Shown here: positions 3,912 to 32,993 of the stretch, in pieces
How positions within the stretch are numbered: the stretch's first letter is position 1
How the letters are laid out: each line of letters opens with the position of its first letter
IMG/VR virus record: IMGVR_UViG_3300018080_000412
Location: 1-32,993 of that record
DNA: 32,993 nt
Strand: one strand, 5' to 3'
Origin: a virus
Translations under genes and position numbers: made by a program
Notes under the pieces: generated by a model
What the model saw: only the letters and a program-made list of their open reading frames with translations
Database searches by the model: none
Told to the model about the DNA's origin: nothing

Positions 3912-4094
3912 TCAATCTTTACTGAAGTAAAAGAGTAATATAAACAACATACCAATCATCCAAACAAGATCTTCACCATTTGTGAACCACCATCCATATG
4001 CTAATGAAATCATTGAAAGAGACAAGACTATGATGGATGAAGGAAGAACAGCAAGTAAGAAGACTATTGACGCTACGATGGCTCCGCTAATCAC
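3912..4094 (-). CDS. small two-helix membrane protein
   Basis: A 60-residue protein with two hydrophobic segments, about residues 4-35 (possibly one long or kinked helix) and 44-58, separated by a short 'YGWWFTNGEDL' turn. The start is the GTG at 4094: on the minus strand AAAGGAG stands five bases before it, whereas the longer frame beginning at 4118 has no site. Size and topology resemble small holins or superinfection-exclusion peptides, but no family signature is visible and no lysis enzyme is nearby. It belongs to a leftward run of small genes with two even shorter membrane peptides. Confidence 0.6.
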   Translation of the reverse strand: MISGAIVASIVFLLAVLPSSIIVLSLSMISLAYGWWFTNGEDLVWMIGMLFILLFYFSKD

Positions 4095-4129
4095 TTTTTC
4101 TCCTTTGTAGTGAGTCACTTTTTAGAGAC

Positions 4130-4407: not shown

Positions 4408-4587
4408 TTAGATATCTATTTCTTCAGGAACAACTGTTATCTTATACCCAAGTTCTTTTATTAGAGAGATGATATCTGGCATAAGTGTTGCCGATCTTGT
4501 CATCTTTCTAAATATTTCAGCTTTTTCACATACAGGGTATATTCGCTGAACGCCAAATACGCTTTTTAACCTAACTTTTATTTCCAT
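4408..4587 (-). CDS. 59-residue protein of unknown function
   Basis: A short leftward gene between two clear cassette members. On the minus strand AAGGAT lies about eight bases before the ATG at 4587, and the frame runs 59 codons to TAA at 4408-4410. The protein begins MEIKVRLKSV and ends PEEIDI. It has a basic first half and a helix-then-strand second half (IISLIKELGYKITVV), a plausible small alpha/beta fold. No cysteine pair and no membrane segment are present. Confidence 0.55.
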   Translation of the reverse strand: MEIKVRLKSVFGVQRIYPVCEKAEIFRKMTRSATLMPDIISLIKELGYKITVVPEEIDI

Positions 4588-4655: not shown

Positions 4656-4856
4656 TCAACAATCAAGATCACAATCCTCAATTCTTTTAACTTTTACGTT
4701 CTTTAGAAGCTCTAATTGTTCTGGTCGTAAGAACAGAGTTAGTGAGCTGTCCTCTGTAAAGACATCTAAGTAAACTAAATCATTACCATTAATCTTGATT
4801 TGTCTAACCTCTGTATGTATCTTTGAACTGTAGCAATCAAATTGAACTCTTATCAT
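4656..4856 (-). CDS. 66-residue protein of unknown function
   Basis: The start is placed at the ATG at 4856 (MIRVQFDCYS), with GAGAGGA upstream on the minus strand. An in-frame upstream start at 4883 has no such site. The protein looks all-beta: alternating strands (RVQFDCYSSK, TEVRQIKING, DLVYLDVF, SLTLFL) followed by 'RPEQLELLKNVKV'. It ends in a Cys/Asp-rich tail (EDCDLDC). The fold suggests a small barrel, but I recognise no family. Confidence 0.6.
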   Translation of the reverse strand: MIRVQFDCYSSKIHTEVRQIKINGNDLVYLDVFTEDSSLTLFLRPEQLELLKNVKVKRIEDCDLDC

Positions 4857-4887: not shown

Positions 4888-4974
4888 TCACCGCAAAAAC
4901 ACCGCTTTATTTATATATATAATTATTAAATTTAAAATTAGCATTGGAGCCGATATTAATAGTGAAATTAACAT
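4888..4974 (-). CDS. 28-residue membrane peptide
   Basis: A micro-gene with AAAGGA six bases before the ATG at 4974 on the minus strand. The product (MLISLLISAPMLILNLIIIY plus IN-KAVFLR) is almost wholly hydrophobic with a basic C-terminal end, so one membrane helix is expected. It lies 14 bases after the stop of another micro-gene (4989-5042) and before the 66-residue gene. The Shine-Dalgarno site and operon position are the support; such a short frame could still be chance. Confidence 0.4.
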   Translation of the reverse strand: MLISLLISAPMLILNLIIIYINKAVFLR

Positions 4975-4988
4975 TTTCAATCCTTTGT

Positions 4989-5042
4989 TTAGGCTCTCAT
5001 CCCATACCAGATCACTAAGAGCGCCCCTAGTAAAAAATACAT
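4989..5042 (-). CDS. 17-residue membrane micropeptide, MYFLLGA family
   Basis: On the minus strand a strong AAGGAG precedes the ATG at 5042. The product is MYFLLGALLVIWYGMRA, a single short hydrophobic helix with a basic end. A second leftward micro-gene at 22243-22302 encodes a peptide sharing MYFLLGA and YG at the same spacing, also behind AGGAG. Two copies 17 kb apart, each with a good ribosome site and each next to another small membrane protein, make translation likely. It heads the leftward cassette 3545-5042. Function is unknown; small membrane regulators, holins or exclusion peptides are possibilities. Confidence 0.55.
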   Translation of the reverse strand: MYFLLGALLVIWYGMRA

Positions 5043-5069
5043 CTTATTATCTCCTTATTATATGCTTTA

Positions 5070-5093
5070 ATGTTATAACTTATATAATAACAT
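5070..5093. promoter_or_regulatory. operator-like palindrome upstream of the leftward cassette
   Basis: ATGTTAT (5070-5076) and ATAACAT (5087-5093) are perfect inverted arms about a 10-base A/T centre, 28 bases upstream of the first cassette start. On the minus strand a weak TTGCTT-17-TATGTT promoter overlaps it. The site could control the cassette. The 5043-5190 gap otherwise shows nothing clear. Confidence 0.35.
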
Positions 5094-5190
5094 AACAAGT
5101 AAAAGTTATGCAAGCAAAAAGCAAATAAAAATAAATTGTTGTCATTAATCCACAGGAATTAGAAAATAAAATTTGACGCTAGGGGGAAAT

Positions 5191-5373
5191 ATGACTTATA
5201 ACGTCTTTACAAAGGAAAGCTTAGAGGAACTGTCTAGGGTTCTCGAAACAAAATTCTCCGATGGATTAGATCCAATAGGATTTCTAATGCAATATGCAGA
5301 CCTATCATTCACAGAAGCTATTGAAATACTTGCTAAGAAACTTCATGTAAAAATAGAGAGAAAGGAGGAATGA
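5191..5373 (+). CDS. 60-residue protein of unknown function
   Basis: The start is the ATG at 5191 (MTYNVFTKES), with AGGGGGAAAT just before it; the longer frame from a TTG at 5173 lacks a site. The protein is short, helical and charged (ESLEELSRVLETKF, FTEAIEILAKKLHV), with no motif I recognise. It leads the rightward block that continues through terS, terL and portal. The next start follows its stop by one base. Confidence 0.55.
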   Translation: MTYNVFTKESLEELSRVLETKFSDGLDPIGFLMQYADLSFTEAIEILAKKLHVKIERKEE

Positions 5374-5374
5374 T

Positions 5375-5512
5375 ATGCCTTTGGTAAAAGGAGCTGGAAA
5401 GAAAGTTATAGGTAAAAATATTAAAGAGCTCATTAAATCTGGAAAGAAGCCAAAGCAAGCAGTAGCTATATCATTATCACAAGCTAGAAAATCTAATAAA
5501 AGAGGTAGATGA
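5375..5512 (+). CDS. small basic phage protein, DUF6496-like
   Basis: A 45-residue, strongly basic protein that opens MPLVKGAGKKVIGKNI and continues with 'KELIKSGKKPKQAVAISLSQ', ending ARKSNKRGR. This matches the short DUF6496-type proteins common in phage genomes: a Lys-Gly start, a helix with 'GKKPKQAVAIALS', and a basic tail. AAAGGAGG precedes the ATG. It overlaps the next basic gene. Function is not known; DNA binding or packaging is inferred from charge and from its place before the terminase genes. Confidence 0.6.
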   Translation: MPLVKGAGKKVIGKNIKELIKSGKKPKQAVAISLSQARKSNKRGR

Positions 5513-5694
5513 TGGCTAAAGAAAAGTGGATAAAGAAAGCAATAAAGAAGCCAGGAGCATTAAGGAAAACCTTAGATGTTAAGAAGGGTAAAGATATCCC
5601 TAAGGGAAAGCTTGAAAAGGCTGCTAAAGGTAAAGGCATAACTGCTAAAAGAGCACGCCTTGCTCAAACGTTAGATAAATTGAGGAAGAAATAA
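5512..5694 (+). CDS. small basic phage protein
   Basis: A 60-residue protein starting MAKEKWIKKAIKKPGALRKT at the ATG at 5512; an adjacent in-frame ATG at 5509 is equally possible. It resembles short phage proteins that share 'KPGALRKTL.VKKG..IP..KL..A' followed by 'KRARLAQTLRK'. About a third of residues are lysine or arginine. It overlaps the preceding gene at ATGATG and is followed directly by terS. Role unknown; a nucleic-acid-binding virion or packaging accessory is a guess. Confidence 0.6.
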   Translation: MAKEKWIKKAIKKPGALRKTLDVKKGKDIPKGKLEKAAKGKGITAKRARLAQTLDKLRKK

Positions 5695-10262: not shown

Positions 10263-10325
10263 TATACTATTCCTTTCGTACGTACAAATAATAGTTATAC
10301 AAAATTAATTTTTATTTAACTATAC

Positions 10326-10352
10326 AAAAAAGCCGCAACCTAAGCCACGGCT
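10326..10352 (-). terminator. leftward intrinsic terminator
   Basis: On the minus strand AGCCG pairs with CGGCT across a 12-base loop and runs into TTTTTT. It ends the unit of the leftward gene 10378-10581, so the genes at 10041-10262 and 9604-10056 probably have their own promoter in 10263-10325, which I could not place. Confidence 0.65.
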
Positions 10353-10377
10353 AGAGAAAAAACTTTGTGCGCTAAAA

Positions 10378-10581
10378 TTATTTTCTCATCATCTTTTTAA
10401 CTTTACCAACCATCTTCATATTTTCTTTATCAAGGCCAGACTGGGTATCGACATAACCGCCTTCCATGACAGCATAATCTTTATCTGGGTAAGACCAATG
10501 CTTAACTTCTTGAGGAAGATTTGAGTAACTATTCTTATCTATTTTAGATTCTTTTTTATCACCATAATATTTTTTAGCCAT
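10378..10581 (-). CDS. small basic phage protein
   Basis: A 67-residue protein with AAGGAGAT before the ATG. It opens MAKKYYGDKKESKIDKNSYS, continues 'NLPQEVKHWSYPDKDYAVMEGGYVDTQSGLD' (key residues NLPQ, P, G-x2-D-x3-GLD), and ends in a basic stretch (KMVGKVKKMMRK). The layout 'KKYYG...NLPQ..K..YP....Y......D...GID' recurs in small phage and microvirus-like proteins; no function is known to me. It is followed by a clear terminator. Confidence 0.6.
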   Translation of the reverse strand: MAKKYYGDKKESKIDKNSYSNLPQEVKHWSYPDKDYAVMEGGYVDTQSGLDKENMKMVGKVKKMMRK

Positions 10582-10605
10582 TTTTATCTCCTTGTGAAAA
10601 CTGTC

Positions 10606-10626
10606 AATGTAAATCCGCTTTACATT
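10606..10626. repeat. AATGTAAA-N5-TTTACATT palindrome, copy 1
   Basis: Perfect 8-bp arms around TCCGC, 25 bases upstream of the leftward gene start at 10581. Copies 2 (24931-24949) and 3 (28811-28831) are also at gene boundaries. The form suggests an operator for a dimeric repressor, or a weak transcription-stop hairpin. Confidence 0.5.
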
Positions 10627-10674
10627 AACAAGGCTTTTGACCCCTAGACACTAAGTACCCTGTGCACTTTGCTA

Positions 10675-10691
10675 GTTAAAATAATTTTAAC
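10675..10691. promoter_or_regulatory. operator-like palindrome beside the late promoter
   Basis: GTTAAAAT-A-ATTTTAAC, 8-bp arms with a single central base, ends three bases before the -35 box at 10694. Its position suits a repressor or activator site for that promoter. AT-richness makes chance possible. Confidence 0.35.
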
Positions 10692-10693
10692 CC

Positions 10694-10722
10694 CTAACAT
10701 ATTTAATGGAAAGTGTTATAAT
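10694..10722 (+). promoter_or_regulatory. probable promoter of the morphogenesis block
   Basis: CTAACA (10694-10699), a 17-base spacer and a perfect TATAAT (10717-10722). Initiation would fall at about 10729, exactly where the three-way junction of the leader begins. It faces the HNH gene, scaffold and capsid. Confidence 0.6.
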
Positions 10723-10728
10723 AATAAT

Positions 10729-10786
10729 GAGATCTAGGGAGAGCTCCCCGAAAAGACTTGTCTACTTCGAGTCCTGATCTCTTTTT
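10729..10786 (+). ncRNA. three-way-junction leader RNA or attenuator
   Basis: GAGATC (10729-10734) closes on GATCTC (10776-10781). Inside are GGGA/TCCC (10737-10740 with 10745-10748, loop GAGC) and GACTTG/CGAGTC (10755-10760 with 10768-10773). The joining strand CGAAAA is A-rich. Five Ts (10782-10786) follow the closing stem. Starting at the predicted transcription start, it could act as a 5'-end cap, an attenuator or a roughly 58-base small RNA. Confidence 0.45.
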
Positions 10787-10820
10787 CTAAAGTAGTCTAA
10801 CCTTAAAGTAGGAGGTCATT

Positions 10821-11384
10821 ATGCCTATTGTTAAATGTGAGTTTTGTGGAAAAGAATTTAAAAGATTTTCTTGCAGAATTAACAAATTTAAACATAGTTT
10901 TTGTTCACGTGAATGTGTAGCGAATAATCAAATAAAATCAATAGAAAAAAAAGTACTGTTTAATGTTAAAAAACTTTCAAATGGCTGTTGGATATGGAAT
11001 GGATCCTTAACTGAATTTGGTTATGGGCAGGTTTTTCATAATAGAAAAATGTATAGAGCTCATAGGCTTTCATGGATAATACACAACGGAGAAATTCCAA
11101 AAGGAATTCTTATTTGTCATATCTGTGATGTGAGATCGTGCATAAATCCTCAGCATCTCTTCATGGCACGGCATCAGGGGAATATGGACGACATGGTAAA
11201 GAAAGGTAGACAGTCAAAAGGTGAAAACCAATCATTTTCAAAATTAACAGAAAAGCAAGTAAAAGAAATACGAACTATCAACAAAATAGATAAATACTCC
11301 TATATTGATTTAGCTAAACAATACAAAGTTTCTAGAACAACAATTTATAATATCGTGAATTTAAAAGCGTGGAAACATATTTAA
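10821..11384 (+). CDS. HNH homing endonuclease with N-terminal zinc finger
   Basis: A 187-residue free-standing endonuclease with a strong AGGAGG site. An N-terminal zinc finger (C6, C9, C28, C32) is followed by the HNH_3-type core at about residues 55-130: 'AHRLSWIIHNGEIPKG', 'CHICDVRSCINPQHLF' (H81, H100, N109, H112) and 'GNMDDMVKKGR'. A C-terminal helix-turn-helix (YIDLAKQYKVSRTTIYNIV) gives target binding. It lies between the late promoter leader and the scaffold gene. Two relatives sit at 24290 and 25802. Such genes spread by cutting phages that lack them; some have become packaging nickases, which cannot be told here. Confidence 0.85.
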   Translation: MPIVKCEFCGKEFKRFSCRINKFKHSFCSRECVANNQIKSIEKKVLFNVKKLSNGCWIWNGSLTEFGYGQVFHNRKMYRAHRLSWIIHNGEIPKGILICHICDVRSCINPQHLFMARHQGNMDDMVKKGRQSKGENQSFSKLTEKQVKEIRTINKIDKYSYIDLAKQYKVSRTTIYNIVNLKAWKHI

Positions 11385-14718: not shown

Positions 14719-15672
14719 TTGACTACTTTAGCAAACATAAGAACAAAAGTAAGAAGACTAACAGCTTCTCCATCGGCGTTGCAGATCAATGATTCTGATA
14801 TAGATAGTTATGTTAATACTTTTTATTTAAACGATCTTCCCTCTCACCTAAAGTTATTTTCATTGAAAGAGACATATACATTTTACACAGAACCTAATGT
14901 TGATAAATATGCTTTAAATACAAACCCATCTTTTACTGCTGTAACACCAAAAGCATATTATAGCATAGAACCTCCTGTGTATATTGCTGGATATGAATCA
15001 CTATATACACAATCTAGGAATGAATTTTTCAGATTATATCCTCAAGTAAACAATGAACAAAATAGTGCTGGTACAGGAATAGCTGGACCATATACTTTTT
15101 CTATAACAAATACTCCTGTATTACGAAATCAGGTTATGATATCTGCAGTAGATGGTGGTGGAAATACTCTTGTTGCTACAGATAATGGAACTGGTGGATT
15201 TACAGGTGATGTTATATCTGGTGCAATAGATTATGTAACTGGAGCAATAACAAACTTTACTTTTACAGCTGTAATACCTGTAACACAGAATATTACAGTG
15301 CAATCTGTTCCTTATGTTGCTAATAGACCAAGCGCAGTATTATTTTTTGATAATACATTTACATTAAGAGCTGTTCCAGATAAAGCATATCGCGTAGAAG
15401 TAGATGCATATATATATCCTACAGCATTATTAAACTCTTCAGACAATCCTGAAGCTCAATTTTTATGGCAATTATTAGCTGTTGGAGCATCAAAAAAGAT
15501 TTTTGAAGATAGGGGTGATATGGAGAGTGTTAATATGATTATGCCATTATTTAATGAACAAATGATTTTATCTCAAAGAAAGACAATAGAACAAAATAGA
15601 CCTGTTAGAACTGCTACCATATATACTTCTCAATATCAAGGATCAGGAAATTTAAATTATAACAATATTTAA
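14719..15672 (+). CDS. head-tail adaptor (neck) protein
   Basis: A 317-residue protein starting at TTG with GAGGTAA upstream; no better start is seen. The N-terminus 'ANIRTKVRRLTASPSALQINDSDIDSYVNTFYLNDLP' and the C-terminal helices (AQFLWQLLAVGASKKIFEDRGDME) fit the helical adaptor that docks under P22-like portals (gp4/gp11 type). Residues about 133-197 are an inserted beta-sandwich module with 'GAIDYVTGAITNFTF', also found in the next large tail protein. The protein probably joins portal to tail hub. Confidence 0.65.
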   Translation: MTTLANIRTKVRRLTASPSALQINDSDIDSYVNTFYLNDLPSHLKLFSLKETYTFYTEPNVDKYALNTNPSFTAVTPKAYYSIEPPVYIAGYESLYTQSRNEFFRLYPQVNNEQNSAGTGIAGPYTFSITNTPVLRNQVMISAVDGGGNTLVATDNGTGGFTGDVISGAIDYVTGAITNFTFTAVIPVTQNITVQSVPYVANRPSAVLFFDNTFTLRAVPDKAYRVEVDAYIYPTALLNSSDNPEAQFLWQLLAVGASKKIFEDRGDMESVNMIMPLFNEQMILSQRKTIEQNRPVRTATIYTSQYQGSGNLNYNNI

Positions 15673-15680
15673 GGGGAAAT

Positions 15681-16274
15681 ATGGCTTATCTCAATAATAT
15701 ACCAGCTGCTTCTGACATATTAGCAATAAGTCAGGGTCAAATTTTAGAAAACTTTTCACAATTACAAACACAATTTAGTGTAGACCATGATTCATTATTA
15801 GCTGCTGGAGCTTCTGGTAAACATTTAAAATTAACATTACCAGAAAGAGCAGCTGACGCTGCTACAGGTGTTAACGAAGGAGCTCTTTATACTAAAGATA
15901 GTGGAACTCAAACGGAACTCTATTATAGAGAAGAAAATAATGGTACTGTTGTTCAATTAACTAGTAATGGTGGTATTGGATTTGTTCGTGCTTTTTGTTC
16001 TTTCTTATATGCTGCTGTATCACCTTTTAGCCCTACTGGCACAGGATATAATATTGGTGCTGGCTCTATTGTACGTAATAGCGCAGGTAATTATACCATA
16101 ACATTTACTAATGCTTTGCCTTCTGCTAATTATACTGTAGTTGGTTCGTCTCAAGATGGATTAATTTTTTCTGTTATATCAAAAAATGCAGCATCTGTGA
16201 ATATCTCTATAAGGCGTGGTGATAATGATGCATATATTGATGGAGAAGCGAATTTCACAATCTTTCAAGTTTAA
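15681..16274 (+). CDS. tail appendage protein with fibre-like C-terminal domain
   Basis: A 197-residue protein with AGGGG before the ATG. Residues 1-40 (MAYLNNIPAASDILAISQGQ, then ILENFSQLQTQF) form a helical N-terminus widely seen in phage tail proteins, followed by 'SGKHLKLTLPERAADAATGVNEGALYTKDS'-like linker elements. Residues 110-197 are a beta domain with 'GNYTITFTNALPSANYTVVGS', typical of fibre tips. It lies between adaptor and propeller genes, so a trimeric needle or short fibre is likely. Confidence 0.6.
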   Translation: MAYLNNIPAASDILAISQGQILENFSQLQTQFSVDHDSLLAAGASGKHLKLTLPERAADAATGVNEGALYTKDSGTQTELYYREENNGTVVQLTSNGGIGFVRAFCSFLYAAVSPFSPTGTGYNIGAGSIVRNSAGNYTITFTNALPSANYTVVGSSQDGLIFSVISKNAASVNISIRRGDNDAYIDGEANFTIFQV

Positions 16275-16283
16275 GGTTTAAAA

Positions 16284-18488
16284 ATGAGTTATAAGCCATT
16301 TTATATAGAAGCTTTTAAAACAGGTCTTGAAAGAGATAAATCTGATTTTCAACTTTTACCCGATGCTTTCTCTATTCTTCAAGATGCATATGTTTGGAGA
16401 GATAGAGTTTCTAGAAAAAAAGGATATAAACAAGTTGGAAGATTATTAAGAATACTGTCAGGTCAATCTCTTGGTCTTACAACAGCAAGTCCTTTTTCTG
16501 GAAATATAAAAACAATCCTTTCCCTTGAGTCAAATGCTCAGATTGTACCTGGATCTTTATCTATTAATATTGCTGCTCCAGGAGCAGAGGGTTTTGTAGA
16601 ACCAGCTATTCCAGATGGAACTTTAATTGGTAATGGTGGTGGATCTGGTACTATAAATTATTCCACAGGAGCATTTACATTAGTAAGTGGAGCTGGATGG
16701 GGAGCAGGACAGGCAACAAATGCAGTATTTAACTATTATCCAACTCTTCCTGTAATGGGTATTGATTTAAGAGCTCTTACAACGATTAATGCGGATATAA
16801 CCGTAGCATTTGATACAAAATATGCTTATCAATGGAATACTGGAAGCAAAAGATTTGAAGAATTTGGAGGAGGAACAACTTGGCAAGGATCAGATAGTCA
16901 ATTTTTTTCTGTTAGTAATTATTATAGTACCACTGCTAGTGGAGATATAATGCTTGTTACTAATTTTAATAAAGGTCCTACTCCAGATCCAATACGATAT
17001 TATAATGGCACGTGGAACACTTTTGCTCCACCTGTTGATGGAGTGGGAAATGAAATGCATCAGTGTAGATTAATATTTCCATATAAAGGACGACTTGTTG
17101 CTTTGAATACATGGGAAGGATCTACATTAGCTGCTTCTACTCAAAATTCTCGTAGAGCAAGATGGTCACAAAATGGAGATGCTCTTGCAGCTGATGCATG
17201 GCGTAGTGATATAGCTGGGAAGGGAGGATATATTGATGCTCCTACTTCAGAAGCCATTATTTCAGCAGAATTTATTAGGGATACTCTTGTTGTTGGATTT
17301 GAGAAATCTATTTGGAAACTAAGATATACAGGAAACTTTATCCTTCCTTTTGTCTGGGAAAGAGTTGATAATGAATTTGGTGTAGAGTCTACTTTTTCAA
17401 TTGTTAGAGCTGATTCTTCACAAATATCAGTTGGAAGTAATGGAATTGTTGCTTGTGATGGGATAAATGCTAAACGTATAGACGGTAAAATCCCAAATAC
17501 TGTTTTTAATATACATAATGAAAATGATGGACTGTTTAGAGTTCATGGAATTAGAGACTACGATAAAAAATTAATATATTGGACATTCCCATCAGCTCAG
17601 AATGATAAAACATATCCAGATAGATTATTAGTTTTTAACTATGAAGATTTATCATGGTCATTTTTTAAAGATAGTCTTACGTGTTTTGGTGTATTACAAG
17701 AATTTGATGATAAAACATGGTCAGATTATCCCAATACTACATGGGAGCAAGCATTATTTCCTTGGGTGGATACTGCTTTACAAACATTATATCCAGCAGT
17801 AATAGCAGGAAATCATCAAGGATTTATAGTAAAGTTACAGAGAAGAGCTAGAAATGATCCTGGATTAACTATAACAGCTATTACACCAGGAACCCCTGTG
17901 CAGATCACTAGCCCTAACCATAATTTATCTACTGGAGATTATGTGCGAATAGATGGAATTATTGGTACAGCCAGTGTTTTAAATGATAATTCATATAAAG
18001 TTAATTTTATTGATGTAAATAACATAACATTAAGTGATGAAAATGGTAATCCGATTACTGTAGCTGGTGGTAGTACTTATATTGGTGATGGTGAAATTAT
18101 ATTATTGCATGATTATATTGTTAGGACTAAAAAGTTTAACTTTTTAGATCGTGGTACTGGTACCGAATTAGGTTATATTGATTTTCTTCTTAATTCCACT
18201 ACTAATGGTGAATTCAATGTTGATATCTTTGCTGACAACAATAACAACACCCCTGTTAATGTTAATGATTCTTTTTTCAATAATACTGTGTCTACCGCTG
18301 CTTATGATTCTGATATTACTGGACAAGATAAGCTATTACACAGGATGTTTTCTAGGCAACATGTGCAGTTTCTTCAGTTTGAATTAAATCTTACTGGAGA
18401 ACAAAAAATAGATACTTCTGTACATGATTCAGATATAGAAATTTATGCTATGACTGCATGGGTTGAAGCCTCAGGAAGAATAGTATGA
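16284..18488 (+). CDS. large tail protein, P22-gp10-like propeller
   Basis: A 734-residue protein. The start 'PFYIEAFKTGLERDKSDFQL' with 'DAYVWRDRVSRKKGYKQVG' is typical of phage propeller-type tail or stabilisation proteins. Residues 240-460 show repeated 'GRLVALN', 'RDTLVVGFEKSIWKLRY' and 'LLVFNYEDLSWSFF' blades. Two extra modules are inserted: a beta sandwich at about 85-155 ('GTINYSTGAFTLVSG') and an FCCH-like barrel at about 525-600 ('SPNHNLSTGDYVRIDGI'). It probably closes the tail channel under the adaptor after packaging. The last four bases overlap the next gene (ATGA). Confidence 0.65.
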   Translation: MSYKPFYIEAFKTGLERDKSDFQLLPDAFSILQDAYVWRDRVSRKKGYKQVGRLLRILSGQSLGLTTASPFSGNIKTILSLESNAQIVPGSLSINIAAPGAEGFVEPAIPDGTLIGNGGGSGTINYSTGAFTLVSGAGWGAGQATNAVFNYYPTLPVMGIDLRALTTINADITVAFDTKYAYQWNTGSKRFEEFGGGTTWQGSDSQFFSVSNYYSTTASGDIMLVTNFNKGPTPDPIRYYNGTWNTFAPPVDGVGNEMHQCRLIFPYKGRLVALNTWEGSTLAASTQNSRRARWSQNGDALAADAWRSDIAGKGGYIDAPTSEAIISAEFIRDTLVVGFEKSIWKLRYTGNFILPFVWERVDNEFGVESTFSIVRADSSQISVGSNGIVACDGINAKRIDGKIPNTVFNIHNENDGLFRVHGIRDYDKKLIYWTFPSAQNDKTYPDRLLVFNYEDLSWSFFKDSLTCFGVLQEFDDKTWSDYPNTTWEQALFPWVDTALQTLYPAVIAGNHQGFIVKLQRRARNDPGLTITAITPGTPVQITSPNHNLSTGDYVRIDGIIGTASVLNDNSYKVNFIDVNNITLSDENGNPITVAGGSTYIGDGEIILLHDYIVRTKKFNFLDRGTGTELGYIDFLLNSTTNGEFNVDIFADNNNNTPVNVNDSFFNNTVSTAAYDSDITGQDKLLHRMFSRQHVQFLQFELNLTGEQKIDTSVHDSDIEIYAMTAWVEASGRIV

Positions 18489-19583: not shown

Positions 19584-20810
19584 ATGGTACAAGTTATACC
19601 TCAGATGATGGGATTAGGAGAACAAATAGGAGCAGCTTTTGGTGGTGGGCTTCAACAAGGGATTCCTCAAGGCATTCAAACTTTACAAAATCAGCTTCAA
19701 CAACATCGTGAAAATACTGCATTAAAAGAATTATCACAAAAGTGGAAACCTGACACACCTGATGCTGAAATTATGAATGACATCATGACAGCTCCAGTTA
19801 GTAAAGAATCTAAGCAATTATATCTTTCAGGTATGGGACAGCTTATGAAACAAAAGGAGCAAGAGAAAAAGCGTACATTTCTTGAAAATATTATTAGTGG
19901 TAGACCTCAAGCAGCAGTTGAAGAACAGGTTACAGAGACAACAGAAGTTTCTAAGCCTGTTTCACAAATATCTAAGCCAGCTATTCAAAAACAAGGTGGT
20001 TTTTCTGAAGAACAAATAGCAGCTGCAACAATGGCAGATCCTAGTATTGGAAGAATGATGCAATCTCAGAATGAAGCGGTAGAAAAAAAATTAGAAAGAA
20101 AAGCTAGAATGCATACTCCTATTACAACAAAATATTTTGAAAAGATTAATGAGCGTGCTGATGTACTTCCACAAAAAGAAAGTGCTTTAACATCTATGGA
20201 AAGAGCTATTTCAGAGGGAGACTTTTCTGCTTTTAGTCGTGATAATCTTGCAGACATTACTGGAATAGAAGCTTTACGTACAGCGAAAGGAGCAGAATTT
20301 ATTTCCTCTGGTAAAGAATTCTTTTTAGGTAGTTTAAAAAGAGCTGGAGCACGTCCAAACCAATGGGTAGAACAGCAAATCCAGAAAATGTTGCCTAAAA
20401 TTGGAAGAAGTAAAGAAGCTAACCTTACTGTTACAGAAGCTTTAAAAAACGAACTAGATATTGAAAAGAAACAAATTGAACTCTCTAATGAAATTGCTGA
20501 TGATCTAGAAAATAAGCTTGGATATGTACCAAGAAATATAGGTTCTCTAGTTATGCAAAAGATGAAGCCATATGCAGAACAGAAGCAAAAAGAATTAGCT
20601 AGTACTTTAAAAGATATATCTAAAGGTAAAGTTTCTAATAAAGAAGAGACTAGTCCTACTGAAAGAGTTGAAGTGAAGGTACAAGAATTTGAAGAAACGG
20701 GAAAAACGTTTGAAAAAATGCCATCTCCAGCACAATTTAAAGATCAAGTTATTGAAGACGATAAAGGCAATAAATTTATAAGCACAGGAAAGACCTGGAG
20801 GAAAATGTAA
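19584..20810 (+). CDS. probable ejection protein, coiled-coil rich
   Basis: A 408-residue protein behind AAAGGAG. A Gly/Gln-rich start (GEQIGAAFGGGLQQGIPQGI) is followed by a coiled-coil-prone segment, and a central region with 'TKYFEKINERADVLPQKESALTSMERAISEGDF' (helical bundle). The C-terminus is charged (EVKVQEFEETGKTFEKMPSP) and ends in a small 'GNKFISTGKTWRKM' strand pair. It overlaps the next start by one base (TAATG). The composition and neighbours suit an internal virion protein released on infection. Confidence 0.58.
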   Translation: MVQVIPQMMGLGEQIGAAFGGGLQQGIPQGIQTLQNQLQQHRENTALKELSQKWKPDTPDAEIMNDIMTAPVSKESKQLYLSGMGQLMKQKEQEKKRTFLENIISGRPQAAVEEQVTETTEVSKPVSQISKPAIQKQGGFSEEQIAAATMADPSIGRMMQSQNEAVEKKLERKARMHTPITTKYFEKINERADVLPQKESALTSMERAISEGDFSAFSRDNLADITGIEALRTAKGAEFISSGKEFFLGSLKRAGARPNQWVEQQIQKMLPKIGRSKEANLTVTEALKNELDIEKKQIELSNEIADDLENKLGYVPRNIGSLVMQKMKPYAEQKQKELASTLKDISKGKVSNKEETSPTERVEVKVQEFEETGKTFEKMPSPAQFKDQVIEDDKGNKFISTGKTWRKM

Positions 20811-22249
20811 TGGCCTTTAAACTTTTAAAGCAAAAAATTGATGATGTTGAAGAAGACGTTTCAGTTGAACAACTAGTAGAACCTGGAAAATTTAAATTAT
20901 TAAGTAGACCAGTAGAGACAGTTGAAGAAGGTGGCGAGTTTGCAAAGACATCAAAAGAAATAGCTAAGAGAGGAGCAACAGGATTAACTGAAGGATTTCT
21001 TGGAACATATGGAGATATACTAGATACTTTAGGTCTTCAATCACCTGATGTATTACAACCAGGTCAAAAAGAACTATTAAAAGCACAACATGAAGCTCCA
21101 GAATCTATTCAGCCATTTTTAGATATGGATGATGATTTGATGCCTCGTTATGGTAAATTACCTTCTAGTGAAGATATAAAAAAGTTTTTAGGTATGTTGG
21201 GTATTAATATAAAGCCTTCAAAAGAATTTCTTGGAAGAGCGGCTGAACGTGCTGGTAAAGGTCTTGGTGCAGCATTAAGTTTTGGTGGAGCTGGTGCTGG
21301 TGCAATGGCAACAGGTGGTGCAGTTGGTCAAGCAGTTGAAGAAGGTACAGAAAGTCAATTAGCTGGTAGTTTAGCTGAATTAGCAACTTCCTTACGTGCT
21401 GACAAAATTTTAACAAAGAAATTATTACCTGGTGCAAAAACTAAAGATATTGTCGAAGCAGGAAGAAAACTTGGGCTGACTGAACAACAACTTACACCTT
21501 TAATACAGAAAGAAGGGAAGCTTGCTTTTCTAGGAAAGTTTGCTCGTAAAGGTGATAAGCAAGAAAAATTGATAGCAGGAATAGAATCTACTCTTGGTGA
21601 TGCTTATGAATTTGTAAAAACAGATGCAAAGAAATTGCCAGCAATTCCAAAAGAAGACTCTGCAAAGTTAGCAGATTCTTTTGATAATATTGTAGAAAAC
21701 CTTAAGAAGACAGTAAAACCTAATCCAGAAAAACAACAAGCTATCGATTTTATAAGTGTTGCTTCAGACATAGTTAGAAAAGAAGGAACAACACCAGAAT
21801 CTTTAATAAACTTTTATCAAGATGTTAATCACATCGTTAATTGGAGGAAAGCAGGACAGAAAAGTGCTGCTGCTTTAAAAGGACCAATTGTTAAGGCATT
21901 AAATAAAGCTGATCCTAAATTGGCAAAAGAATTTGAAAATTTAAATACCCTGTATTCTAAATTTAAAACTGCTAGCAAACATTTGAAGCCTAAAGAGATT
22001 GATAAATATTTAAATATGGGTAAAATTGGTGGTTTAGCTCTTTCACTTGCTACTGGACATCCAGCAGGAGTAAAAGCTGCTATTGGAGCTGGAGTAACTA
22101 TGGAAGCTGCAACTCAAGCATTGACTAACCCAAGGTTCCAAAATATGTCTAGAAAACTCTTAAAAGCTATTACAGATGATAAAACAAAATCTGCATTAGC
22201 TTTGAGCAGACAAATGGTTGAATTCATTAAGGAGAAACCAACTCAATAG
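20810..22249 (+). CDS. probable ejection protein with hydrophobic glycine-rich segment
   Basis: A 479-residue protein, translationally coupled to the previous gene. Residues about 145-180 (GKGLGAALSFGGAGAGAMATGG) and 400-435 (MGKIGGLALSLATGHPAGVKAA, then AIGAGVTMEAATQ) are glycine/alanine-rich and hydrophobic, which suits membrane penetration. The rest is helical and lysine-rich with 'LINFYQDVNHIVNWRKAG'. The pattern resembles P22-gp16-like ejection proteins. No lytic transglycosylase motif is visible. It is the last structural gene before the leftward island. Confidence 0.58.
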   Translation: MAFKLLKQKIDDVEEDVSVEQLVEPGKFKLLSRPVETVEEGGEFAKTSKEIAKRGATGLTEGFLGTYGDILDTLGLQSPDVLQPGQKELLKAQHEAPESIQPFLDMDDDLMPRYGKLPSSEDIKKFLGMLGINIKPSKEFLGRAAERAGKGLGAALSFGGAGAGAMATGGAVGQAVEEGTESQLAGSLAELATSLRADKILTKKLLPGAKTKDIVEAGRKLGLTEQQLTPLIQKEGKLAFLGKFARKGDKQEKLIAGIESTLGDAYEFVKTDAKKLPAIPKEDSAKLADSFDNIVENLKKTVKPNPEKQQAIDFISVASDIVRKEGTTPESLINFYQDVNHIVNWRKAGQKSAAALKGPIVKALNKADPKLAKEFENLNTLYSKFKTASKHLKPKEIDKYLNMGKIGGLALSLATGHPAGVKAAIGAGVTMEAATQALTNPRFQNMSRKLLKAITDDKTKSALALSRQMVEFIKEKPTQ

Positions 22250-22302
22250 GTTTCAAGTATCCCATATAATATAATTGCAAAAGCTCCTAATAAAAAATAC
22301 AT
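22243..22302 (-). CDS. 19-residue membrane micropeptide, MYFLLGA family
   Basis: On the minus strand AGGAG stands seven bases before the ATG at 22302 (an in-frame ATG at 22305 is also possible). The product is MYFLLGAFAIILYGILETY. It shares MYFLLGA and the YG with the 17-residue peptide at 4989-5042, and the DNA around the start is almost the same. It follows the 41-residue membrane gene by 13 bases and overlaps the end of the rightward gene by seven. Function is unknown. Confidence 0.5.
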   Translation of the reverse strand: MYFLLGAFAIILYGILETY

Positions 22303-22315
22303 CATTTCTCTCCTA

Positions 22316-22441
22316 TTATCTTATATTTTTATAAAATCTATATCTCTTTTTTCTAGCCTGTATTCTTCTCTTAATACACTCTTCTTCTGCCTTTATGATC
22401 CAATAAATAATAGCGACTAACAAAGTAAGAATCCAAAACAT
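22316..22441 (-). CDS. 41-residue membrane peptide with basic tail
   Basis: The frame starts at the ATG at 22441 with only GGTGA as a possible ribosome site. The product MFWILTLLVAIIYWIIK has one clear membrane helix, then a strongly basic tail (KRRIQARKKRYRFYKNIR). Such N-in or C-in basic anchors occur in small phage membrane proteins, including some holin-like ones. It is directly followed by the 19-residue MYFLLGA peptide, so the two form a small leftward unit. The rest of 22250-22590 holds an inverted repeat and a rightward terminator. Confidence 0.45.
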   Translation of the reverse strand: MFWILTLLVAIIYWIIKAEEECIKRRIQARKKRYRFYKNIR

Positions 22442-22564: not shown

Positions 22565-22593
22565 GAGGGTCCTCTTATGAGGACTCTTTTTTT
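22565..22593 (+). terminator. rightward intrinsic terminator of the virion block
   Basis: GGGTCCTC (22567-22574) pairs with GAGGACTC (22579-22586) over a TTAT loop and is followed by seven Ts (22587-22593). It ends rightward transcription about 315 bases after the last ejection gene. Confidence 0.75.
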
Positions 22594-22747
22594 AATTTTC
22601 TTCAAGTCTTCTTTTTATAGATTCCATGATAAAATCTCTCATTGATTGGCCGCGCCTGCTAGCTTCTAACTTTACTACTGTATGATCCTTTTGTGTCACT
22701 AAAAAGCTAATTTGTTTATTTCTTTTCTCTTTTATCTTTTCAGTCAT
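22592..22747 (-). CDS. ribbon-helix-helix regulator
   Basis: A 51-residue protein. The start is the ATG at 22747 because AGGAGGGAG lies directly before it; the longer frame from 22780 has none. After a basic arm (TEKIKEKRNKQ), 'ISFLVTQKDHTVVKLEASRRGQ' (strand and first helix) and 'SMRDFIMESIKRRLEEN' (second helix) form an Arc/CopG-type ribbon-helix-helix. These bind operators as dimers of dimers through the strand. A divergent promoter pair lies just upstream, so it may control itself and the tail-fibre unit. The fold call is good; the target is inferred. Confidence 0.7.
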   Translation of the reverse strand: MTEKIKEKRNKQISFLVTQKDHTVVKLEASRRGQSMRDFIMESIKRRLEEN

Positions 22748-22875: not shown

Positions 22876-24201
22876 ATGACAAAATTAGTAAAATCATACG
22901 GTCTTGACAACCCACTTCAAGATGTTTTTCCTAAACCAATTATTTCAACAAGAGCTCCAACATCTAGCGATAAGAGTTTACCTCTTGGGCAGATGTGGAT
23001 TAATAAATCTGCTGGTTCAGCGTATACACTTACTTCAGTTTCTGCTGGTTCAGCGAATTGGGAACTTTCTACTGCAAGTGCTGGTGGAGCTCCAATAACG
23101 AAATACGTAGTTGATGCAGATGGTACTGGAGACTATACAACAATTCAAGCTGCTATAAATGCTGCTAATGCTGCTGGAGGAGAGGCAACTGTATGGGTAA
23201 GAAATGGTACTTATACAGAAGATTTAACTCTTTACAGCAAAATAAATGTTGTAGGAGCAACTGGATTTGGAAATTTAGATAATTGTGTAATTGTTGGAAA
23301 ACATACGCCTCCTACAACCGGAGCTTTTATTATTGATGGATTTGTTCTTAGAAGCGCTACTCATGTATTTGATAGTGCTGCCGCTGGCTCAGCATCTATT
23401 GTTGTTACAAATTGTATCATAGATATTACGAATGGTTATACATTCAATTTACCAAATTGGACAGGTTTGTTTGAAGGTTTCGATATTGGATCAACATCAA
23501 CAAATGATGGATTTGTAAATAATACTGGTGGAGCATCTGTTAGAATGGTAACTACTTTGTGTGGTCAGGGTAGTGCTAATCCTATGATAGTTAGTGGTCC
23601 AACTGATTTTTTTGAGGGATATCCAATTGTTCCAATAAATGCACAGGGAGCTGCCGTTGTTAATATCTATGGTGGTGCGTGGTATAATACTATTACAACA
23701 TCTGGTACTGCATCACTTGCTATTTTCAATTCTTCATGTGAGACAGGTGTTAATGCTGCTATTTCTCATGGATCTACTGGAACTGTTTCCTTAACTAATA
23801 CCGCTATTTCTTCAAGCGCTAATCCAGTTATTGCTGGTGCAGGAGCTGGTGCGCTAACACTTGCTTCAACTACTTTCACTAGTGGAAATGTTCTAGCAGG
23901 TACTTTAACGCTTGGAACTGCTGATGAAACTAAGATGGCGAGTCTTAAGATTGGTAGTAAAATAAATGTAGAAACTACTGGTGCTGCTGCAACGGCTGGA
24001 ACTTCTACACTTGTTGGTGGAACTGTTACTGTTAATACAACTGCTGTTACAGCAAATTCAATCATACTTCTTTCACATCAAACTAATGCAGGAGCTCCTG
24101 GATTTGTTTCTGTTACTGCAAGGGTTGTTGGAACTTCGTTTACAATTACCTCAAGTTCAGGAACAGATACATCTACAATTGGCTGGCTTATTTTGAACTA
24201 A
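22876..24201 (+). CDS. tail spike with beta-helix domain
   Basis: A 441-residue protein with AAAGGAG before the ATG. Residues 1-70 are an anchor-like head with 'STRAPTSSDKSLPLGQMWINKSAGSAYTL', shared with the protein at 31448. Residues about 78-125 (YVVDADGTGDYTTIQAAINAAN, GEATVWVRNGTYTEDL) are the opening of a pectate-lyase-type right-handed beta-helix, as in spikes that degrade or bind surface polysaccharide. The rest is Thr/Ala/Gly-rich helix rungs ending in a small beta domain. Enzyme residues cannot be assigned. It is the first gene of the fibre locus. Confidence 0.72.
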   Translation: MTKLVKSYGLDNPLQDVFPKPIISTRAPTSSDKSLPLGQMWINKSAGSAYTLTSVSAGSANWELSTASAGGAPITKYVVDADGTGDYTTIQAAINAANAAGGEATVWVRNGTYTEDLTLYSKINVVGATGFGNLDNCVIVGKHTPPTTGAFIIDGFVLRSATHVFDSAAAGSASIVVTNCIIDITNGYTFNLPNWTGLFEGFDIGSTSTNDGFVNNTGGASVRMVTTLCGQGSANPMIVSGPTDFFEGYPIVPINAQGAAVVNIYGGAWYNTITTSGTASLAIFNSSCETGVNAAISHGSTGTVSLTNTAISSSANPVIAGAGAGALTLASTTFTSGNVLAGTLTLGTADETKMASLKIGSKINVETTGAAATAGTSTLVGGTVTVNTTAVTANSIILLSHQTNAGAPGFVSVTARVVGTSFTITSSSGTDTSTIGWLILN

Positions 24202-24230
24202 ATTGCTTAGTTTAAAACAGTTAAGTCTGT

Positions 24231-24276
24231 GGTTGTTTAGCAAAGATGAGTATATTATACTTTTTGTTAAACAACC
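24231..24276 (+). terminator. 15-bp stem-loop before the second HNH gene
   Basis: 24231-24245 pairs with 24262-24276 over all 15 positions (two G-T pairs), then CATTTTTATT follows. It can end transcription of the spike gene. It also lies in the leader of the HNH gene starting at 24290, so it could limit its expression. Confidence 0.6.
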
Positions 24277-24289
24277 CATTTTTATTAAG

Positions 24290-24931
24290 ATGTTTTACAA
24301 AAGAAAAGACATATCTGGAAGAAAATACGGCTATTTAGAAGTAATCGAATCTTCTCATACTGTATCTAGGGGGAAAGCAAACTTTGCAGTTTGGAAATGT
24401 AGATGCATTTGCGGAAAGATAGTTTATGCAGAAGGCGTAAGGTTAAGAAATGGAACTCTTAAATCATGTGGATGTAAGCAATACAAACCAGCTGAAGAAA
24501 GATTGCAATCTAAAATTAGAATAAATAATGCAACAAAATGTCATGAATGGACTGGTGCAAAAGACAAGGATGGGTATGGGAAAATTATGGTCGATAAAAG
24601 ATATAAAAAAACCCATAGATATGCATATGAACTTACTTTTGGAGAAATACCAAAAGGTATGTTAATAGCTCATGCTTGCGATAATCCGTGTTGTTGCAAT
24701 CCTAATCATTTATTTTTGACAGATATAAAAGGAAATAATTTAGATTGTAGAATGAAAGGAAGAAATGTGCGTGGAAGAAAGTGTCATAATTCTAAACTTA
24801 CTGAAAAAGATGTTTTAGAAATAAGAAATTTAAAAAATAAAATGGGTGGAATTGAAATCGCAAAGCTTTATGGTGTTTCGCGTGCTTCAATTTCTTTAAT
24901 CCTTAATAGGAAAATTTGGAAGCACATCTAA
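24290..24931 (+). CDS. HNH homing endonuclease with zinc-binding N-domain
   Basis: A 213-residue endonuclease. The ATG at 24290 is preferred since the frame upstream (TTG at 24203) runs through the long hairpin; the ribosome site is poor. Residues 10-65 form a zinc domain (WKCRCICGK and TLKSCGC). The HNH core follows: 'HRYAYELTFGEIPKGM', 'AHACDNPCCCNPNHLF' and 'GNNLDCRMKGR'. The C-terminal HTH (GIEIAKLYGVSRASISLILNRKIWKHI, in two parts) resembles the endonuclease at 10821. It interrupts the fibre locus after the spike gene. A palindrome of the AATGTAAA family begins at its stop codon. Confidence 0.82.
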   Translation: MFYKRKDISGRKYGYLEVIESSHTVSRGKANFAVWKCRCICGKIVYAEGVRLRNGTLKSCGCKQYKPAEERLQSKIRINNATKCHEWTGAKDKDGYGKIMVDKRYKKTHRYAYELTFGEIPKGMLIAHACDNPCCCNPNHLFLTDIKGNNLDCRMKGRNVRGRKCHNSKLTEKDVLEIRNLKNKMGGIEIAKLYGVSRASISLILNRKIWKHI

Positions 24932-25801: not shown

Positions 25802-26287
25802 ATGGCATATGGTCCAAAGCAAACTTTAAAAGAAGGGTTTGAAAAATTTGTCATTAAAACTCCTGATGCCTGTTGGGATTGGTCTGGGTGCTGTCCTGAA
25901 AACCCTGGTTACGGTCAATTTAGGCATGAGGGTAAGAGAGAGAGGGCTCATAGAGCTTCGTGGATAATACATTTTGGAGAAATTCCAAATGGAATGTTTG
26001 TATGTCACAAATGTGATAATAAGAGATGCTCTAATCCAGACCATCTATTTTTGGCAGATGTAAAAGGAAACAATTTAGATTGTCTAAAAAAAGGACGTCA
26101 TCCAACTATGGGTAAGAAAGGTTCTGAAAATATAATGGCTAAATTAAGTGATAAAGAGGCGGTGAAAATAAGAAATTTAGCTGTTGATGGATCAATTCCT
26201 CAACATAAAATTGCTTCAGAATATAATGTTTCTCAGCCACTGGTTTCTTTAATTAAGCGTAAGATACTAAGGGGGAATGCATTGTGA
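25802..26287 (+). CDS. HNH homing endonuclease, third copy
   Basis: A 161-residue endonuclease behind GGGGGA. It lacks the N-terminal zinc finger of the other two. The HNH core is 'AHRASWIIHFGEIPNGM', 'CHKCDNKRCSNPDHLF' and 'GNNLDCLKKGRH'. The C-terminal HTH reads 'QHKIASEYNVSQPLVSLIKRK'. The core is closest by eye to the copy at 24290 (both have GNNLDC). Its stop overlaps the GTG of the following fibre gene by four bases, so it is coupled into the fibre unit. Confidence 0.82.
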   Translation: MAYGPKQTLKEGFEKFVIKTPDACWDWSGCCPENPGYGQFRHEGKRERAHRASWIIHFGEIPNGMFVCHKCDNKRCSNPDHLFLADVKGNNLDCLKKGRHPTMGKKGSENIMAKLSDKEAVKIRNLAVDGSIPQHKIASEYNVSQPLVSLIKRKILRGNAL

Positions 26288-32195: not shown

Positions 32196-32993
32196 ATGGC
32201 TAATGGCTTCATAAATAATGATTTTACTGCCGACGGTAACATTACTGGAACAACTTTATTCGGCACAACTTTTGATACAAATGTCGCTGCAGCAGGGATT
32301 ACTTTAAGCGGTACTACTCTTGCAGCAGATGGAACAGATGCAAATATTTTAATTACTTTAACACCAAAGGGAACAAGTCCTGTATATTTAAATGGTAAAC
32401 TTGGTATTGGAACTAATGCTGTTCCACATGGAGCAATAGGTGGTGCTTTAGTTGCTTTAGAAGGAGCTAATGCGAGTGTTTCTGCTGGTCCTCATATGCA
32501 GTTTACTACTGCTTCAGATGATTATCCACTGATGCAAATATTTCCATATGCACATAATGACATGCATTATCTTTTTGATTCATATTATGATGGTGCTTTT
32601 AAATCATCTAGTTCTTCATGTAATTTTAGAATATCAAAGAGTTCAACATCTCTTAATATTGCATCTGAGGAAGGAATAGCAGCTGGTAGTGTGGCTACTT
32701 TTCAAAATGATTTAATTATTGATAAAGCAGGATATGTAAATAAACCGCTTCAGCCAGCATTTTGTGCATATAATTCAGCAACTGATCAGGATGTAACTGG
32801 TGATGGAACAACATATACATTAATTTATGATACAGAATTATATGATCAGAATTCTGATTATAATAATGGGACAGGAACTTTTACAGCACCGATAGGAGGG
32901 AAATTTTTATTTACGATAACTACTACTCTTCTAAGTGTAAACGGATTTGGTTTGACTACAATGAATTTAATAACAAGTGATGACACTATTAGA
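32196..32993 (+). CDS. tail fibre with C1q-like domain, partial
   Basis: An open frame of 266 codons that runs off the right edge. AGAGGT precedes the ATG. The first 70 residues repeat a segment of the gene at 27561 ('TTFDTNVAAAGITLSGTTLA', 'DGTDANILITLTPKGT'). A middle part (PHMQFTTASDDYPLMQIFPY) is typical of fibre-borne receptor domains. From about residue 185 comes a C1q/TNF-like beta-sandwich: 'PAFCAYNSATDQDVTGDG', 'YTLIYDTELYDQNSDYNNGT', 'GTFTAPIGGKFLFTITT'. C1q-like heads trimerise and often bind surfaces. The end is missing only because the window stops. Confidence 0.72.
   Translation, partial: MANGFINNDFTADGNITGTTLFGTTFDTNVAAAGITLSGTTLAADGTDANILITLTPKGTSPVYLNGKLGIGTNAVPHGAIGGALVALEGANASVSAGPHMQFTTASDDYPLMQIFPYAHNDMHYLFDSYYDGAFKSSSSSCNFRISKSSTSLNIASEEGIAAGSVATFQNDLIIDKAGYVNKPLQPAFCAYNSATDQDVTGDGTTYTLIYDTELYDQNSDYNNGTGTFTAPIGGKFLFTITTTLLSVNGFGLTTMNLITSDDTIR

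Follow-up and report, generated by a model that had tools for sequence, protein, structure and literature searches.

Two very short open reading frames lie on the minus strand at distant places in the window, by which is meant the whole stretch of 32,993 nucleotides that was analysed (IMG/VR record IMGVR_UViG_3300018080_000412). The first opens a leftward operon of small genes, with the following features:

5040 to 5193, minus strand: divergent promoter/operator-like block that holds the Shine-Dalgarno sequence and start codon of the leftward operon
4989 to 5042, minus strand: micropeptide 1, MYFLLGALLVIWYGMRA, 17 amino acids, ATG to TAA, first gene of the operon
4888 to 4974, minus strand: membrane frame of 28 amino acids, MLISLLISAPMLILNLIIIYINKAVFLR, with a weaker AAAGGA 6 nt upstream of the ATG
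4656 to 4856, minus strand: protein of 66 amino acids, next in the operon, Shine-Dalgarno GAGAGGA, no family
4408 to 4587, minus strand: marker gene of 59 amino acids, 49-57% identical in L177, L180 and L084

The second closes a cassette of small genes at a site designated slot 2, downstream of the tail nozzle gene:

16284 to 18488, plus strand: tail nozzle protein, 734 amino acids, profile match to the solved nozzles 8zkk/8zkm and to 9nwi
20810 to 22249, plus strand: probable ejection protein by gene order, 479 amino acids, at the position of P22 gene 16 and convergent with micropeptide 2
22243 to 22305, minus strand: micropeptide 2, (M)MYFLLGAFAIILYGILETY, 19 or 20 amino acids, last gene of the slot-2 cassette
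22316 to 22441, minus strand: single-span membrane protein of 41 amino acids with a basic tail, an open frame behind a weak GGTGA
22565 to 22588, no strand assigned: hairpin and T-run, terminator-like in sequence
22592 to 22747, minus strand: ribbon-helix-helix protein of 51 amino acids that heads the cassette, with sub-threshold NikA-like and ParD Pfam matches
22876 to 24201, plus strand: fibre/tailspike protein, 441 amino acids, K1-lyase_C domain (E 2.5e-25), the other border of slot 2

The genome is that of an uncultured P22-like podovirus (short-tailed phage) and encodes a P22-type portal, RusA, an HTH repressor-like gene and HNH genes; no close isolate was found. From the nozzle on, the gene products have 734, 163, 192, 408 and 479 amino acids, followed by the 441-residue fibre protein. 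This follows the P22 order 10-26-14-7-20-16-9, and the identity of the nozzle fixes the P22 gene order for the window. By this order the 479-residue product is probably an ejection protein. It has homologues in the relatives and no match in PHROGs, its predicted model (mean pLDDT 51) indicates no more than a helical protein, and the weak fold matches of this low-confidence model are to phage proteins, one of them named 'injection protein'. Slot 2 was reached in the relatives through the nozzle protein, because a pattern search with the 479-residue protein found no viral relatives. Three HNH endonuclease-like genes (10821-11384, 24203-24931 and 25802-26287) are found among the virion genes of the window, and groES and groEL adjoin virion genes in another uncultured podovirus contig (L096 12334-14224).

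The start of micropeptide 1 has AAGGAG 8 nt upstream of the ATG and is preceded by TAATAAGGAGATAATAAG; read 5' to 3' it is ATAATAAGGAGATAATAAG ATG TAT TTT TTA CTA GGG GCG ... TAA. Micropeptide 2 (22302-22243) is preceded by AATAGGAGAGAAATG, and an extra in-frame ATG immediately upstream, at 22305, gives a 20-residue form beginning MM. Its start reads AATAGGAGAGAA ATG ATG TAT TTT TTA TTA GGA GCT ... TGA, with AGGAG 4 or 7 nt upstream of the two alternative ATGs. The 20-residue form has a Shine-Dalgarno sequence and one hydrophobic span (best 12-residue Kyte-Doolittle mean 2.48), and its stop overlaps the 3' end of the convergent 479-residue gene by 7 nt. The features from which the first-pass annotation had argued for paralogy, i.e. 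the common first seven residues and a YG at positions 13-14, the AGGAG before each start and the adjoining membrane frames of 28 (4974-4888) and 41 (22441-22316) residues, are all present in the sequence. In total 10 of the 17 residues are identical. Codons 1-7 differ by three synonymous and no non-synonymous substitutions, and between the two frames pS is 0.74 and pN 0.25. This synonymous excess carries little weight, since amino acid likeness was the basis on which the pair was selected; given that choice, a synonymous-only start is expected even for convergent peptides.

The expectation by chance was obtained from first-order Markov resamples of intergenic DNA, counting frames of 14-30 amino acids with a hydrophobic core behind an AGGAG-class site. 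Two such frames are found in the gaps of the window where 0.013 are expected, a 20-mer at 32470-32532 being left uncounted because it lies past the last closed frame and near the contig end. The corresponding counts in two relatives are 1 against 0.0 expected (G004) and 1 against 0.007 expected (G005). Composition-preserving shuffles of the two peptides reached 10 or more identities out of 17 in about 1e-5 of the trials, and a nucleotide search of the whole record with the copy-1 region returned the copy-2 site with an E value of 1.5e-5. When 25 tiny membrane peptides were compared over their first 14 residues, nine or more identities were seen in three pairs only: micropeptides 1 and 2, the clearly homologous L023/L021 (E about 1e-11) and the likely homologous L242/L236 (E about 0.03). 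The proposed paralogy is supported, and the claim that these are not chance frames is borne out by the counts and the shuffles. Both are very probably real genes, and by their sequence both would be translated and the peptides inserted in the membrane.

The opposite explanation, that they arose by chance or are what is left of larger membrane genes and are alike by accident, is improbable. It can draw on the lack of orthologues of either micropeptide, on the occurrence of MYF.LGA at the start of unrelated proteins (LemA-like, from the genome scan) and on an out-of-frame look-alike in L096, but it is opposed by the excess in the gaps, by the rarity of such identity among the shuffles and by the recurrence of tiny membrane genes at the same position in relatives.

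A wider phage family defined by MYFLLGA, as the first-pass annotation had suggested, found no support beyond this record. The strict pattern had 0 matches in 2.9 million viral contigs, and looser patterns including MYF[LF][LF]G gave no micropeptide in these contigs, every match being a larger gene or a frame that lies within or runs across another gene. The single match in a pattern scan of 85,000 genomes is the LemA-like start of a protein from a Dethiobacter MAG, not a micropeptide. Tblastn against named phages found nothing, and other genomes gave no short frame that begins with MYFLLGA and follows a Shine-Dalgarno sequence. In these searches neither micropeptide had a homologue outside the record, and no Rfam family was matched; for the micropeptides and the membrane/coiled-coil proteins Pfam had no family and PHROGs nothing convincing. 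Three look-alikes were dismissed: MYSVIVMLFIIYYGNF in L096 is an out-of-frame reading of a 97-residue gene, L003 6009-6053 is part of a conserved non-coding region with no start codon and with indels relative to the window, and MYFLLGGV... in L219 is the tail of a longer open frame. The earlier reading therefore stands in part, as real paralogous micropeptides whose setting, rather than sequence, recurs. The results support a sequence family confined to a single record and a wider class defined by position.

At the copy 1 locus, the 154 bp block at 5040-5193 contains the inverted repeat TGTTAT...ATAACA and is 76% identical to L003 1186-1338, with the similarity stopping at the ATG. L003 is the nearest relative (terminase 86%) and keeps the leader, Shine-Dalgarno sequence and ATG of copy 1, while a different gene of 152 amino acids begins at the equivalent ATG. 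The conservation of the leader with another gene behind it implies that the start site is in use and that the peptide is exchangeable. The block is a likely operator separating the leftward operon from the terminase genes. Elsewhere in L003, the segment 5594-6060 is inverted relative to 10310-10788 of the window and includes a conserved non-coding region that follows the 67-residue gene.

No homologue was found of the 28-residue membrane frame, and the 59-residue marker gene is conserved in relatives at 31 loci. The left small-gene operon of the relatives carries other membrane peptides of 17-19 residues; those of G004 and G005 (MFIALLFYVLLFSILGD and MFIPTWLIIAIIFFYIISD) have strong Shine-Dalgarno sequences and are wedged between genes. 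Micropeptides in the operons of the window, G004 and G005, together with slot 2, point to a habit of the group at two loci. Small basic proteins are encoded at 5375-5512 and 5509-5694 of the window; both are conserved at varying positions, the first in 43 of the fetched loci and the second in 12. In L180 3056-3800, small genes that are nearly identical lie in tandem, and two share a Shine-Dalgarno leader (ACACCACGAGGAATAGCA).

Short frames at the head of an operon could also act as leaders that merely prime translation of the next gene. Copy 1 ends 14 nt before the 28-residue frame, and in L084 a 17-residue frame stops one base before the next ATG, its last codons forming the Shine-Dalgarno sequence of that gene. 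This explanation fails for copy 2, because no gene follows it and its strand holds nothing downstream except the antisense of the convergent gene; the membrane character also recurs in relatives, and a leader function is very unlikely.

The cassette of slot 2 lies on the counter strand between the 479-residue probable ejection gene and the fibre/tailspike gene. The slot carries a ribbon-helix-helix gene in the window, G004, G005 and L228, and a homologue of the window's protein in L178 exceeds the ParD cut-off. At the place of copy 2 there is a membrane peptide of 40 residues in G005 and of 31 in G004. In distant phages the same slot has membrane peptides of 16, 19, 21, 26, 27, 28, 30, 31, 33, 37, 38, 40 and 41 residues, and genes for other membrane/coiled-coil proteins (EMKDFHGRLCAIEERNRK type) often lie upstream of them.

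The survey took in 80 of the at least 590 nozzle-bearing IMG/VR contigs. Tail-to-tail membrane ORFs of 14-45 amino acids were found at 16 of 25 ejection-gene ends against 0.44 expected, a somewhat optimistic proportion since L021, L023, L025, L033 and L034 were first spotted by the same feature; the peptides at these ends have 16-41 residues and mostly unrelated sequences. The count of slots by fibre-gene motif is independent of the peptide feature and hence free of that inflation, and about 15 of 17 such slots of at least 150 nt have counter-strand membrane genes (including the coupled gene of L174). Among 1395 distinct long-gene ends, a convergent membrane frame occurs at 27, compared with an expectation of about 10; slot 2 accounts for about 17 of these, and the others match the chance level.

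The L023/L021 pair of 31-residue peptides, from two phages, has a dN of 0.24 and a dS of 1.32 (dN/dS about 0.18). A PYTY(E/D)D-like C-terminal end is common to the peptides of L178, L231 and L242. Micropeptide 2 had no significant match to other slot-2 peptides, only a short ...LETY end, and it fits the class by convergent position, size, span and Shine-Dalgarno sequence. Micropeptide 1 is located in the leftward operon and is outside the class. The tiny membrane genes of slot 2 thus likely form a positional class, and their recurrence suggests that a class of membrane peptides in phages has been overlooked. No description of a tail-to-tail membrane peptide beside the ejection gene was found in the literature searched. 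The small phage genes that Fremin et al. (2022) obtained from metagenomes are, as cited in PMC11364881, like these in being short, unannotated and found by genomics. Frames of fewer than about 30 codons are commonly passed over by gene finders, so such a class would tend to stay unannotated.

In P22, immI (mnt-arc-ant) and sieA are located between genes 16 and 9 (PMC8022706). SieA prevents DNA from entering by way of the gp16/gp20 ejection conduit, and escape mutations are found in gp16 and gp20 (PMC10883804). The P22 slot resembles that of the window in the order of ejection gene, counter-strand genes and tailspike (PMC8022706, PMC2629481, PMC10883804), and both have a membrane protein (a predicted one in the window), a ribbon-helix-helix gene and high variability between phages. 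SieA types have about 162 amino acids and three spans (PMC10883804), whereas the slot peptides have 16-41 and one, with no sequence relation between them; immI has ant, whereas no ant gene or integrase was seen here.

An exclusion-type role for slot 2 would agree with its position, the membrane character of its products, the regulator and the variability. The explanation preferred here, held with a little less than even confidence, is that both frames encode translated inner-membrane micropeptides, with copy 2 at the end of a moron cassette, copy 1 as an operon-first paralogue and exclusion as the likeliest function. Micropeptide 2 would close a 'moron' cassette on the counter strand that comprises a ribbon-helix-helix regulator, the 41-residue membrane protein and the 20-residue peptide, and micropeptide 1 would be its paralogue heading the leftward operon. 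Each peptide would form a single span in the host inner membrane and may disturb a membrane step of infection, as SieA does from the same slot in P22, with expression possibly controlled by the adjacent regulator. The exclusion-type function, taken by itself, is a tentative assignment by analogy: the slot matches that of sieA by gene order, the inner-membrane location of the micropeptides is predicted, and SieA with its about 162 residues and three spans speaks against the comparison, the micropeptides having 17-20 residues and one predicted span. A prophage-expressed role is unsupported, because no integrase was found in the 15 records searched, despite the repressor-like HTH gene.

It is a speculative and rather unlikely extension that, in a large uncultured P22-like group, the rapidly changing peptides of 16-41 residues work as minimal factors that exclude competitors by acting on their matching ejection proteins, and it is as doubtful that the two paralogues of the window are among the smallest members of that exclusion class. 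If the peptides are real, then across a widespread group of uncultured phages the variable site next to the ejection genes, where P22 has sieA, is also home to minimal membrane peptides, and position offers a route to many more of them. Should they prove to block ejection conduits, few known exclusion factors would be smaller, and the peptides would allow a direct test of SieA-like action.

The peptides could instead act on the host membrane in another way, as modulators of a host membrane protein or as membrane-toxic peptides like those of type I toxins. Copy 1 is in a leftward small-gene operon of the kind typical of host takeover, where relatives have other membrane peptides of 17-19 residues, and Ibs-type peptides resemble the micropeptides in size (about 19 residues), hydrophobicity and single span. 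Unlike the genes of type I toxins such as Ibs, the micropeptides are in a phage operon setting and no antisense RNA was found for them, the search returning weak promoter-like sites only and no known antisense RNA from Rfam. Effects of this kind are somewhat unlikely, less so than a part in lysis, in which the peptides and the small membrane proteins of the cassette would be holin, antiholin or spanin-like parts.

A lysis role is kept as a candidate because no integrase and no recognised lysin were found; the lysozyme, amidase and M15 families had no member in the window or in the related records searched, some of them incomplete, and no lysis gene was recognised elsewhere in these records. 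PHROG matches to a holin family at 3912-4118 of the window (E 0.011), to an Rz-like spanin for a 65-residue protein of L033 (E 0.009) and to a holin for a 71-residue protein of L034 (E 0.06) point the same way but are sub-significant. A cassette can contain as many as about eight similar membrane/coiled-coil proteins, whereas a lysis module needs one holin, and no slot cassette has an endolysin gene. The lysis genes of P22 are located elsewhere, and 17-20 residues is, to our knowledge, below the size of known holins. Such a role is unlikely.

The array proteins of L033, L278, L231, L285 and L287 had no match in Pfam and no more than a single weak one in PHROGs. These arrays (in L033 at 14750-16470, in the others in the slot) consist of up to about eight membrane/coiled-coil proteins of 57-85 residues beside the ejection gene, several of them ending in EMKDFHGRLCAIEERNRK.
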